In this document: one piece after another, positions 13,622 through 61,145 of the stretch
Layout of the letters: the number at the start of each line of letters is the position of its first letter
Position numbering within the stretch: the first letter of the stretch is position 1
Assembly (NCBI GenBank): GCA_002794775.1
Contig: NBAY01000048.1
Location: 275,385 to 339,384, forward strand
Direction: 5' to 3'
DNA: 64,000 nucleotides
DNA from: Porodaedalea pini
Taxonomy: Eukaryota > Basidiomycota > Agaricomycetes > Hymenochaetales > Hymenochaetaceae
Made by a program: the position numbers and the translations under genes
Notes under the pieces: generated by a model
Seen by the model: only the letters and a program-made list of their open reading frames with translations
Database searches by the model: none
Told to the model about the DNA's origin: nothing

Positions 13622-14640
13622 TTACGATTACTGAGTTTACGAAGTATCGTCTTTTGTTGTGGGCCAATTTTTGGAGCCCGATTTGGGTTTTTGTCAGCTT
13701 CATAAGCTGATTGCATACCATATATGTTAATTTTGGACCCCATTTCTGCTAAATTGAGCAGTGGCGATGAAGTCGTTCACTGCTTTTGTGGCTGTACAGT
13801 GCTCACTTTCTTCATTGACATATTTAATTTTATGCAACCATCCAAATCTCAAGCTTGAGGCATGTAAAAAAACTTCAGACAATTCACTATCTGTCTATAT
13901 ATTTTCTGTAAAATAAAGTGGCCTGGTTGAATTAAAAATCGGTCGAAAGCAGAGTTGACGACAGTGCCAACATGTGATCTCCAACCTGCCAGTGGACGGT
14001 CTGTTTTGCTGCAGCAAAGACACTTGCTTCGCTCCCTCCACTTGAGCTGAATCGTCTCCTTCACTTTTCTCTTGGGCTTTCTCTGCTTTTTTCTTATTCA
14101 CACAACATCACTGCTTCTCATGGTAGCCGTCCTGTCACAGCTGCCTGCCTGCCCACCCGCGCTGCTCGAGGCAACGAAGAGGTCGATGACAGCATGGCAA
14201 GAGGACCTCCAATTGCTCTTTCATCGCACGAAAGATTGCTTCCCAGACGTCGTCTGGGATCTAATGGATGAGGACGCGATGGACGAAGGCAGCAATGCGG
14301 ACTCGGAGGTTTGGGGACATAAAGGTGAGCACAAGCGCAGAACCTTCCACCTGTCCTTGAGACCAACAGATGCTAGCTATCGTTTATGCTCGTGCACTAT
14401 TCAGTTTACAGGCATGCTATTTCTCGTTCCACCCGGCACCTATCGCGTCCCCACTTCCTTTCGCTGCCTCTCAGACACCGTCTCTTCCAATGCCGACGAC
14501 ATCTGCACTCTCTTTCAACCTTGGCATTGAGTTCCCCTACCTGTCCTCCATGCGCTCCACTTCACCTTCTCAATTCCGGCCTATCTCCCCTGCGCCCGCT
14601 GTATTCGGCTCCCTCACGCACATATCTCTCAACCATAATC
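13622..14640 (+). repeat. Conserved head of mosaic element A, with BTB gene 5' part
   Basis: This region matches, inverted, the right parts of block B (to 40716) and block C (to 52718). It includes a small hairpin with CAGCTT/AAGCTG arms near 13695. The end proper, next to copia, has imperfect complementary arms ACGATTACT and AGTATCGT (13626-13650). The last 250 bp encode the Ser/Pro-rich N terminus of the BTB gene (YFSF.PAPIASPLPFAAS) in a frame that breaks off at about 14640. Confidence 0.7.
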
Positions 14641-14649
14641 CCGCTTGGA

Positions 14650-15657
14650 CCGCTCGACCTCTCCTCAACTCACAAATCCATCCCTCAACCTCTCCCATCC
14701 GCCCTTGCTACCGCTCGCCACATCCAAGATGTTTACCAGGTCCGGTATCCGGAAGGCATCAAGAATCCCAAGCCAGAGCTTAACACGAACACGAAGGATG
14801 GCAAATTCCGGTTCGTATTTATTGTCTCGCTTTCTTTCCATGACTAACAAGTTAACACTATATTTCTGCGATTAGCTATGATCGAGACTTCCTTCTCCAA
14901 TTCATGTCCGTGTGCAACGAAAAGCCGTACAATCTCCCTCCTCTTAAGGCTATCGGTCTCGAGTCATCCGACCAATCGCACTCTATGGGACGGGGTGGCT
15001 CTGGACGCCGAGGTGTATCTGGTAGTATGGGCCGGCCATCTTCCACTGCTTCAAGGCAAGCATCGATTGGGCTTGGCATGGGTGCTTTGAACGGCTTCGG
15101 CGGCGAACCTGGTTCAGGCTTTGCGATGGGCAACTTCTCTGCACCGAACAAACTGTCAAGTGAAGAGCGCTGCATGCGCTCGACGTCGATGAGCGATGAG
15201 CCCGGTGGCCTTCCATTAGCAAGCGGGCGCCCATCGCCTATTGTTCGCTCTTCCAGTCAGGATGGCGCGGGCGCTTTGGGCAACAAGTGTACGCGTAGCA
15301 AACGTGGCGACTCAACACGCAACGAGTCAAACCGAATCCGCGCTTCTGCCAATCAGTTCAACACGAATGCTGCTTCCTCCGTCGAACCTGTCGCGCCGCT
15401 CGAGCAGTCTGCGAACCGCTGGGTCGTGGGGAGCGTGTCCAGGCGTGGGGCCTCGAATGACCCAGACCCACCCGAGATCGCGGACAAGAAGGTCCGTTCG
15501 CTGCTCAACAAGCTCACTATGGAGAAGTTTGAGTCTATCTTAAACCAGATCATTGTGTGGGCAAACAAGAGTGAGAGCGAGAAGGATGGGCGTACGCTTA
15601 TTCAGGTCGTCCGGCCTGTGTTCGAGAAGGCGACGGATGAGGCGGCTGGAGTAACCC
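14650..15657 (+). pseudogene. eIF4G fragment (up to start of MIF4G)
   Basis: Exon sequence encodes RHIQDVYQVRYPEGIK, a 65-bp GT-AG intron at 14811-14875, then [17 protein letters not shown], a Gly/Ser linker and the beginning of the MIF4G helical domain ([17 protein letters not shown], about 15493). eIF4G is the scaffold that links cap-binding eIF4E to eIF4A and the ribosome. The piece stops inside MIF4G at KATDEA, where PRP8 sequence takes over. Retention of the intron shows capture at the DNA level. Confidence 0.8.
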
Positions 15658-16154
15658 TGTCTCCTCTCATGGTTTCCAACCAAAGAATGCGCCTCATTTC
15701 TCACGAGGACGAAATCTTCGGACCCAATGGCGCGGACGAGGATGGATTCGAGCTACCAGATGAGGTTGAGCCATTCCTATCGGATAAGGATTTGGAGAAC
15801 GAGAGCACTGCGGACGGTATTGCATTATGGTGGGCGCCGGCGCCTTACAGTCGCCGCTCGGGAGACATGCGCCGCGCGCAAGATGTACCATTGGCGAAGA
15901 ATTGGTACTTGAGGCACTGCCCACCGAACCAGCCTGTAAACGTTCACGTGTCGTACCAGAAGCTACTCAGGTGCTTTGTTCTTAATGAGCTGAAGACGAG
16001 GCCGGAGAAGCCGATGACGAAAAAGAACCTGTTCCATCAGTTGAAGGCGACAAAAAATTTCCAGACCACAAAGCTGGACTGGGTGGAGGCTGGCTTGCAA
16101 GTGTGCAGGCAAGGATGCAACATGCTGAACTTGCTCATCCGTCGCAAGGTATGA
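14904..16154 (+). CDS. Open eIF4G-PRP8 fusion frame, 416 codons
   Basis: From an ATG at 14904 the frame runs through the eIF4G linker and MIF4G start (residues 1 to about 250) across the chimeric junction into PRP8 (residues about 255-416, [12 protein letters not shown] to LLIRRKV). The final codon reads into a PRP8 intron that begins at 16149. The frame is intact over 1.25 kb despite the junction. It could be translated if transcribed, but I see no promoter evidence and treat it as a by-product of fragment joining. Confidence 0.4.
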
Positions 16155-58682: not shown

Positions 58683-60690
58683 GGTCCAGGTACACTGTGA
58701 GCGACGGAGTTTTGATATTCGCGGCGACGTTGATGATTTCTTTAAGACGCGGCACACCGAGCGTGACGTTTTTACTCGAAACACCAGCGTAATGGAAGGT
58801 ATTTAGTGTCATCTGCGTCGCCGGCTCACCGATCGACTGGGCAGCGAGTGTGCCGCACATCTCGCCCGGATGAGCGACCGACTCGTTGAACTTCGTCTCC
58901 ACCTCGCCCAAAACCCAGTCAAATGCTTCTCTGTTGAGATGGAACTCCTCTAAGACTGGACGCGCGGCAAAAGTCGCCCGAAGGTGCATGCGGAATGCAA
59001 CAGAAGCGTTCTCGGCAGCCTCCTGTATTAAATGATCATCACAGCACACAACGATGAGGCGGTCTGCCAGCTGCTGCACCTGCTCAATGATGTAAACAGG
59101 CTCCAGATCGCTCGGCTTTCTGCGGTCGATATGGAAAATCTGCGTTGCGTTCTGCACGATGCGGTTCAGGTTGACAGGAAGATAGTGGGCAATGGAACTG
59201 TCACGGCCCGGGAAAATGAATTCACGGAGCGATTTACGATCCTCATGAAGACGGTCGTATTCCTCGTCGAGTTTTTTTTTTTGCTGGAGCTCGAGGGATG
59301 AATCATCGATACCGACTTGCAAAACACCAAGAAGGAATCCACCCTTCAGGTCAGTGACGTCGACTCGATAGCGAAGTTCGAACTCGCGATCATTGATACC
59401 GAACATTTTGATCATTTGCTGTTCAATAAAAGCGCTGTCCATATCATCCTCGCCATACACGAATTGGATCAGGTCACCCAGTGAGTTTCGTACAGTCCCG
59501 TCGTAGCAGACAGCCATGTCTTCGAGTGTTTGACAAGTCGACACTGAATGTAACCAGTCTCGGCCGTCTTGACAGCGGTATCGATCAAACCTTCGCGACC
59601 AGCCATAGTGTGGAAGAAAAACTCTTGCGGAGTTAATCCACGAAGATACGAGTTCTCACGGAGCCGCGCACCTCTGGGCTGAAGTCATCCTTCGTAAAGT
59701 GAGGTAGAGTGCGATGTCTGAAGCCAAACGGGATTCGCTTCCCTTCAACGGACTGCTGACCAGCACAGACGGACAACTGCGAGATGTCAATGAACGAACC
59801 CTTCGAACCCGCGACAATGATCTGTTTGACATTGTTGTCCTCCTCCAGGTTCTTCTCTGCGTATTGACCGGCGTGGTCACGAGCCAAGTTGAGCTCACGT
59901 TCGACTCGACTCTCGAACGACTCGCGAATAGCCATACCCGGTGCAGCTTTCAGACGGTCGTTAGATACATCTTCAATGGCCTGCACGACATTCTGCTTCC
60001 GCATCTTGATCTGCTCCGTGATGTACGCCATTGTCTTCTTATCCGCGACTGTATCACCAATGCCTATACTGAATCCATTGTGGAACAGCCAGTAATTAAC
60101 GATCTACTGGAGACCAGTGAATAGCGTACGAGTCGCTTTGGGACCTTTTTCGCGGAAGACGACGTGGATAAGACCGCCTTGCGACGCTCCAACCGTATTT
60201 TTCTCCACGATACCAAAGATGATCTCGCCATTTTCAATGAGCATGCCATCGTCGAAAACGGGGCTCGAAGATTTCGGATCAGGCGAGCGATATATATTTA
60301 TTCCGCGAGGAATCGTCATGCCAAGGATCTGTTTGCCTGTCCATAATGGCTTCCGCTTCAGTATCGCCGGCGTCGGAATCGTGCCATCCCAGTCCGGCAC
60401 CCAGAGCAGGATGTTTTAAGGAAGCTTTCCCGCAGAGTGAATTTCTGGACACCGCACGACGTGTCCTGTACGATGCCCATAACAGGTTTGTTCGCCTGCG
60501 ATGAGATGATCTGCTTCGCAACCCATGCAATTTGACTGAGCTCGGCTCTCGTCTCTTCGCTCTGAGGAACGCTAAACGGAGCTGAGAAAGAGATGAAAGG
60601 CTAATCTTAAAAGTGACATACTGCATGTTCATCTCATCGCCATCGAAATCGGTGTTATACGGTGGAGTGACGGAAAGATTTAGACGAAAG
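58683..60690 (-). pseudogene. RPB1 fragment in block E
   Basis: From the active-site segment (TDFDGDEMN, near 60630-60650) through [43 protein letters not shown] sequence and [30 protein letters not shown] to TVYLDP, where it is joined to PRP8. The trigger-loop part is open for 295 codons (58657-59544). A run of eight or more A/T near 59270 adds residues. The left joint GACCC/TTTGCTACG is unique to this block. Confidence 0.88.
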
Positions 60691-60739
60691 GCTAAAATAC
60701 ACTAATCAGCGACCATACCATGAGTTAAAGGTGGATAAA

Positions 60740-61145
60740 CATGTACTAGAGTAAGGCATAAGTCGCACGCGATGCCTCGCCGGAGAAGGCTTCTTCTCAT
60801 CGACTGCAGGGGACTTCTTCGTCGCTGTCTTTCTCCCTCCAGCTGTTGCCACAGATGCATCTGATCGAATTGAATTCGCTGACAGTGACTTTTGAATGAC
60901 GGGCGTCTTGTTCACTGTTGTTTTCGTAGACACTGTAGTACTGTGCGACACCTTCCCTGTGCATGACGCCGCGTTTACCGTACTAATTGGTGCCGCACTC
61001 GTTTCAGAGACGTGATGCAGCCGTCCTTTAGGTAGCGCCGGCGCCGGCGTTTTAGGCGATCTTGAGGTTCCGGTGCTGCGCATCGAGGTCGTTGACGTGG
61101 TCGAGACTTTCCTCGACCGAGTAACAGAGTCGCGCGGAGTCATAC
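60740..61145 (-). pseudogene. Ser/Thr-rich linker of the BTB/CAP-Gly gene, block E
   Basis: It encodes MTPRDSVTRSRKVSTTST, SPKTPAPALPKGR and ATKKSPAVDEKKPSPARHRV and shares the joint to RPB1 with block B (60590-60780 equals 38330-38520). It ends at the block edge. Confidence 0.65.

Follow-up and report, generated by a model that had tools for sequence, protein, structure and literature searches.

Mosaic blocks of host-gene fragments in the window

The window analysed here is a 64,000-nucleotide stretch of the Porodaedalea pini genome (C48:275385-339384, in an assembly of 53 Mb and 201 contigs; labels formed of C and a number designate contigs), and it holds five mosaic blocks, A to E, that are built of fragments of a few host genes, among them PRP8 and RPB1. 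Its genes and introns are fungal, probably basidiomycete, in character. The blocks match one another as well as many other places in the genome. We propose that they belong to a Helitron2-like family of rolling-circle elements in which the 3′ end is doubled into a palindrome, and in which a reversed copy may act as terminator for the head of another copy (see below). The features of the window that bear on this proposal are as follows; the palindrome coordinates take in the bordering host A/T.

13622-19745, plus strand: block A, a complete non-autonomous element within a copia element, with BTB-like, eIF4G-like, PRP8 and RPB1 cargo
13622-14056, plus strand: head of A, with the 5′ end TTACGATTACTGAG... 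and the 5′ inverted-repeat copy TACGATTACTG
14904-15650, plus strand: eIF4G-like fragment of A, with a Pfam MIF4G start, below cut-off
15652-18163, plus strand: PRP8 fragment of A with intron, 92.6% to the C12 copy
18161-19503, plus strand: RPB1 fragment of A, 92.3% to the C5 gene; PRP8/RPB1 fusion at 18161-18163
19569-19746, plus strand: tail palindrome of A, two inverted Helitron2-type 3′ ends; the final T is host
34850-40720, minus strand: block B, a 5′-truncated element with palindrome (34850-35029), CAP-Gly, RPB1 pieces, BTB-like cargo and a partial head
42542-44277, minus strand: block D, palindrome (42542-42735) and cargo common with B but joined elsewhere; headless
44915-52718, minus strand: block C, a complete element with palindrome (44914-45093), PRP8, BTB-like cargo and an intact head
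53309-61145, minus strand: block E, palindrome (53309-53486), PRP8 (53486-55235), MA3, eIF4G-like (55549-56037), PRP8 (57744-58683) and RPB1 (58682-60774); headless

A first-pass annotation, made from the sequence of the window, had described the blocks as built of the same genes. This stands for PRP8 (PROCN, PRO8NT), RPB1 (domains 5, 6 and 7), CAP-Gly and MA3, all above the Pfam cut-off, and, below it, for MIF4G and BTB. NOT1, also named at that stage, was verified only in a relative, L018, by a Pfam match; the CAF1-binding domain, the only part of NOT1 searched for, has 12 matches in the genome, none of them within the window. The gene that contributed MIF4G and MA3 we call eIF4G-like, on account of those two domains. 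All the PRP8 and RPB1 pieces mapped in A to E are oriented towards the palindrome, in agreement with the constant relative orientation first described, and each block has one palindrome of the common family at its end, again as described. The head motif (seven mismatches or fewer) occurs in the window at 13622 and 52718 only, that is, in A and C, and not in B, D or E; since block B keeps the head region minus its first 55 bases, the head thought to be common to A, B and C is intact in A and C alone. Block D, previously taken to start at 42735, starts at palindrome base 42542. In block C, PRP8 begins in exon 1, 49 bases past the start codon, and ends inside the gene (94.4% over 5.2 kb). Two gypsy copies in the same orientation, 88.5% identical to each other, flank block A (7177-12963 and 20401-26195).

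Precise ends and insertion sites

Searched with the head and the palindrome, the genome yielded many copies with precise ends, as the first-pass annotation had anticipated. The head motif has 122 matches (58 and 64 by strand), the palindrome loop 98 (46 forward, 52 reverse) and the palindrome arm 208, with no match to the control in any of the three cases. The 5′ end is precise, 35 of 40 scored places (of 142 candidates) starting at 13620-13622. To pair ends, the 98 palindromes were compared with 102 heads (100 of the 122 matches listed, and two heads from start-site scoring), a pair being less than 13 kb apart with no other head between; at least 59 pairs were found. Of 98 heads, 61 have a palindrome 13.2 kb or less in front of them and 28 have one behind, the latter figure reflecting clustering. 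Four tandem head motifs in 25-bp steps, a 5′-end stutter, were seen at C77:170607-170707, and at L071 (C23:469440-469960) a head motif faces a palindrome only 95 bp away, possibly a cargo-free minimal element.

Uninterrupted copia copies, L037 and L020, show the empty site of block A, and read CAGTCYATAGATAG; A was thus inserted as A/TTACG...CTCAAG/T, without duplication. Empty sites were also found for C (in L001), for L019 (in L020, T/T) and for L013 (in gypsy copies at 74-75% identity), so that the site is spanned for four of the 17 joined flanks tested, with no target-site duplication; the base preceding the target T is A for A, G for C, T for L019 and G for L013. Blocks A and C, the limits of which remain as first drawn (13622-19745 and 44915-52718), are complete, precisely inserted elements. 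Among 26 distinct flanks (two of them from related copies), the base before the head is G in 13, A in nine, T in four and C in none; A or G thus precedes the head in 22 of the 26 (p 0.0003). The elements are followed immediately by a host T and usually preceded by A or G, with no target duplication. Pack-MULEs have long terminal inverted repeats and make an 8-9 bp duplication; no duplication is present at the four empty sites.

A palindrome formed of two 3′ ends

The elements start with TTACG and end with CTCAAG, and each arm of the palindrome has the same layout, a CAGTAATC[G/A]TAG-type repeat, CTT, a GCCAT-NNNN-ATGGC hairpin and CCACTACCTCAAG. The strict form (repeat, hairpin and tail) is present in 103 of 122 arms, the other 19 differing by small changes. 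The CAGTAATC[G/A]TAG-type motif is an inverted copy of the head's TACGATTACTG, placed 31 nt from the 3′ end, and the folding of the hairpin has a z of -18. In Helitron2 elements (Bao and Jurka 2013, PMC3627910), including FoHeli of Fusarium (PMC5148889), a hairpin is described next to a 3′ inverted repeat that lies 20-40 bp from the end. Each arm therefore looks like a complete Helitron2 3′ end, and the palindrome like two 3′ ends back to back; as a sequence, the palindrome of about 180 bp offers a complete 3′ end to both sides, and may function as such in either direction.

Relative to the head, the palindrome is in opposite orientation in 31 cases and in the same orientation in 28, and its orientation seems to be fixed within cargo families. 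Three palindromes, in C40, C54 and C62, have heads facing them from both sides (one of the C62 heads is 23 kb away); the one in C54 is ambiguous as a single insertion, since the flanks on its two sides resemble each other as inverted repeats. At L011, C15:4724-4783 and C42:74993-75052 an extra single arm of 59-60 bp lies beside a full palindrome, perhaps the trace of a further event, and the arm at C25:147355, which has no partner among the matches listed, is a candidate single 3′ end.

Junctions between cargo and palindrome

Junctions were read by aligning palindrome flanks with homologs that lack the palindrome. The reading covered 61 of the 98 palindromes, namely the best matches, those of the window, 39 picked others and some met incidentally. 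The homolog continues with an A at 45 of 48 distinct junctions, and the next base is C or T at 44 of the 48; other offsets around the junctions are near background. The rule applies to the cargo side (A in 19 of 21, pyrimidine in 20 of 21), to the outer side (15 of 15 and 12 of 15), to the palindromes with heads on both sides (three of three for both bases) and to junctions of unassigned side (eight of nine and nine of nine). In L079, a copy related to block C, the joint lies two bases from the inner joint of C, at an A. On the opposite strand, the junction A corresponds to the target T, and the pyrimidine to the R that would be found beyond an inserted element. The cargo-side joints thus have the marks of insertion sites, one of them a base that the element no longer contains, and are best read as old insertion sites.

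Cargo and parent genes

The cargo is widespread, with 116 stretches in the genome matching the PROCN domain of PRP8 and 145 matches to RPB1 domain 5, the latter probably including other polymerases. Mapping of the cargo placed the likely parents apart from one another, on three contigs: RPB1 on C5, as an open frame of 1167 codons with C-terminal repeats; NOT1 on C3, where its best match lies; and PRP8 on C12, where the best copy (L050, C12:645500-653500) has a plausible start and introns, along with single-base frame breaks, some at C runs, that are possibly assembly errors. A PRP8 intron is retained in A, C and E. The cargo was therefore copied from genomic DNA, and reverse transcription as its origin was rejected.

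Breakpoints are common to several elements. The PRP8/RPB1 joint is found in A, L002 and L003, the start of RPB1 in B, E, L015 and C54, and the end of RPB1 in A, B, L002, L003 and L015; the PRP8/RPB1 fusion is spanned by matches, mostly without base-by-base reading, at 30 of the 40 places scored (out of 177 candidates), block A being one of them. That so few genes recur is due to the inheritance and reshuffling of earlier captures; it reflects old fusions that spread, not fresh captures made again and again. The idea that the blocks form a capturing family that re-uses its captures is thus supported; that the family is non-autonomous, also part of that idea, holds for some members only (see below). 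Within one element type (pairs of 7.6-8.5 kb), eight copies were compared over 5 kb and show 98.0-99.9% identity; their outer flanks differ, except in L004 and L007. L039 and L040 (C143, C171), like L003 and L058, share one flank exactly and not the other, a hint of recombination between copies.

RepHel genes and relationship to known Helitrons

Ten matches to Helitron_like_N were found in the genome, and a PIF1 helicase domain was also found in members of the family. RepHel genes are accompanied by the same cargo and heads as the elements of the window; the family is therefore not only non-autonomous, and its RepHel-bearing members are likely to be the source of the enzyme. In C54, PRP8 pieces enclose a Rep frame and a helicase frame, and a family head at a distance of 14 kb points at these frames. 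Both frames are broken by copies of an inverted-repeat element also present in the window (62293-63149; 857 bp, with two inverted arms of 407 bp), which occurs within RepHel copies and at other loci. L019, a clean insertion, combines the 3′ part of RepHel with cargo from PRP8 and RPB1; it is colinear with C54 at 95%, and its RepHel runs against the direction from head to palindrome. A palindrome that pairs with the head was not found, among the 98 palindromes and the heads listed, for the RepHel copies in C54, C37 and C128, and we therefore claim no complete RepHel element with both ends; nor was a head found for the C79 element at the one place guessed. An endonuclease domain had no Pfam match in the open reading frames scanned, the frames being interrupted and the scan not exhaustive.

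The following comparisons refer to the portions of the cited papers available to us. The family resembles Helitron2 in its short asymmetric terminal inverted repeats, its 5′ T, its subterminal 3′ inverted repeat with hairpin, a RepHel without endonuclease match and the lack of target duplication at complete insertions, and the reversed RepHel of L019 also has parallels in some Helitron2 elements (PMC3627910, PMC5148889). It differs from them in the doubling of the 3′ end as a palindrome and in its heavy host-gene cargo. The target also differs, being N^T here (mostly R^T), TTTT^T/C in Helitron2 and TNAT^A in FoHeli (PMC3627910, PMC5148889); we take this as a difference between families, since sites vary between them. 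Some Chlamydomonas Helitron2 families have duplications of 7-19 bp. With maize Helitrons (PMC3288121) the family would share stepwise capture with nested copies as intermediates, and with bat Helraiser (PMC4778049) a 3′ hairpin terminator and its bypass to an alternative terminator; maize and bat Helitrons, however, have the canonical (Helitron1) features 5′-TC, CTRR-3′ and A^T, in place of which TTACG and CTCAAG are found here, and a two-faced terminator is not described in those portions (PMC3288121, PMC4778049). HELPO of Pleurotus likewise represents basidiomycete Helitrons with genes near RepHel, but ends in 3′-CT[A/T]G, and no P. ostreatus gene fragments are reported in its intact elements (PMC4289320). 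Helentrons and HINEs have in common with this family the subterminal inverted repeats, a 3′ palindrome, non-autonomous derivatives and the absence of target duplication, but Helentrons differ by an endonuclease domain and a preference for TT, and the 3′ palindrome is of 5-10 bp in mite families (PMC4067079); a fusion of endonuclease to RepHel, typical of Helentrons, was not seen in the open reading frames covered by our scan.

A model for capture, and its alternatives

We favour, with a probability of about 0.6, the view that a single Helitron2-like rolling-circle family with a doubled 3′ end accounts for these observations, a reversed copy acting as terminator for the head of another. An element inserted opposite to a neighbouring or enclosing head would act as terminator for that head; copying from the head would then proceed across host or cargo DNA, enter the palindrome and end at its far arm. 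The product would be a new element, in which the cargo meets a flipped palindrome at the very position of the earlier insertion. Within clusters of nested copies, repeated events of this kind would truncate earlier captures (PRP8, RPB1, NOT1 and others), recombine them and spread them anew. The broader notion that the 3′ terminator is two-faced, so that each inserted copy would stop any facing head and prime the next capture, each capture flipping the palindrome, and that the family would in this way work as a gene-shuffling engine, seems to us only slightly favoured by the evidence.

Several observations weigh against this view. No spanning empty site was obtained for 13 of the 17 joined flanks, for lack of a homolog or because homologs stop short of crossing; the latter applies to one flank or both of L010b, L012a, L017, L020, C40 and C62, and the heads that share a palindrome, at C40 and likewise at C62, did not rejoin into a single empty site. 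The A rule has three exceptions (L002, in a T run; the inner joint of C, with a G; and L086), and the 48 junctions are not fully independent of each other. A 5′ hairpin formed from the 5′ repeat appears in the fold, but is weak (z -0.69). The search at two RepHel-palindrome junctions (C79 and C40) yielded no donor-daughter pair, each junction being single-copy. The head-side flanks of L003 and L014 are 100% identical over 249 bp and diverge beyond the palindrome, and L003 and L058 have the palindrome-side flank in common; larger segments were therefore also duplicated or recombined. Finally, the Helitron2-like assignment is drawn from the layout of the ends and the RepHel domains.

The strongest competitor, which we regard as possible although improbable, accepts the same family and derives the cargo-palindrome joints from nested or neighbouring copies whose palindromes recombined homologously, and not from termination. 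It is consistent with the C62 palindrome, which unites two cargo-side joints also found in elements of C26 and C5, with the several insertions that are not clean, and with copies that have one flank in common and differ in the other. Recombination would, however, still require reversed nested insertions to produce the A/pyrimidine rule, and some joints occur in many near-identical copies with differing outer flanks (one joint is found at nine palindromes), so that transposition followed the joining. Termination is favoured because a 3′ hairpin is reported to terminate in Helraiser (in the available part of PMC4778049) and because the new joints occur in amplified families.

Template switching at microhomology, by which new 3′ ends would have been joined to the palindrome, could explain why the A is followed by C, matching the AC of the palindrome, at 27 of 48 junctions; but T, which offers no homology, is next commonest (17 of 48), A and G are rare (4 of 48), and 18 of 45 junctions have no matching base at all past the A, which makes this origin very unlikely. 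Fainter still is the chance that the palindrome is an independent element, akin to a miniature inverted-repeat transposable element (MITE), that landed in the cargo between A and T and was later used as an end. A and T borders on both sides would be expected in that case too, but each arm resembles the 3′ end of the family and carries the motif of its head, and only one of 61 palindromes has a match spanning it as a solo insertion, a marginal one; a solo palindrome MITE was therefore rejected. Virtually no credence is left for an assembly artefact or for a gene cluster duplicated locally, in tandem or as a segment (a single tandem duplication being the contrary outcome named in the first-pass annotation): the blocks are indeed grouped in one 48-kb stretch and some copies elsewhere have a common flank, but dozens of contigs have copies, the ends of which are precise and the flanks of which mostly differ, and the likely parents, being on three contigs, argue against a plain segmental duplication, which was rejected.

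Among the titles and abstract openings searched, we found no description of this mode of capture or of the capture of PRP8 or RPB1. There is no settled account of gene capture by Helitrons; one of the main models has them read on to another terminator. Here, the junctions record the origin of the terminator, which makes the capture step testable from sequence. The family also represents heavy capture of host genes in a fungus, where two papers on fungal Helitrons, in the portions available, call such capture scarce (PMC5148889, PMC4289320).

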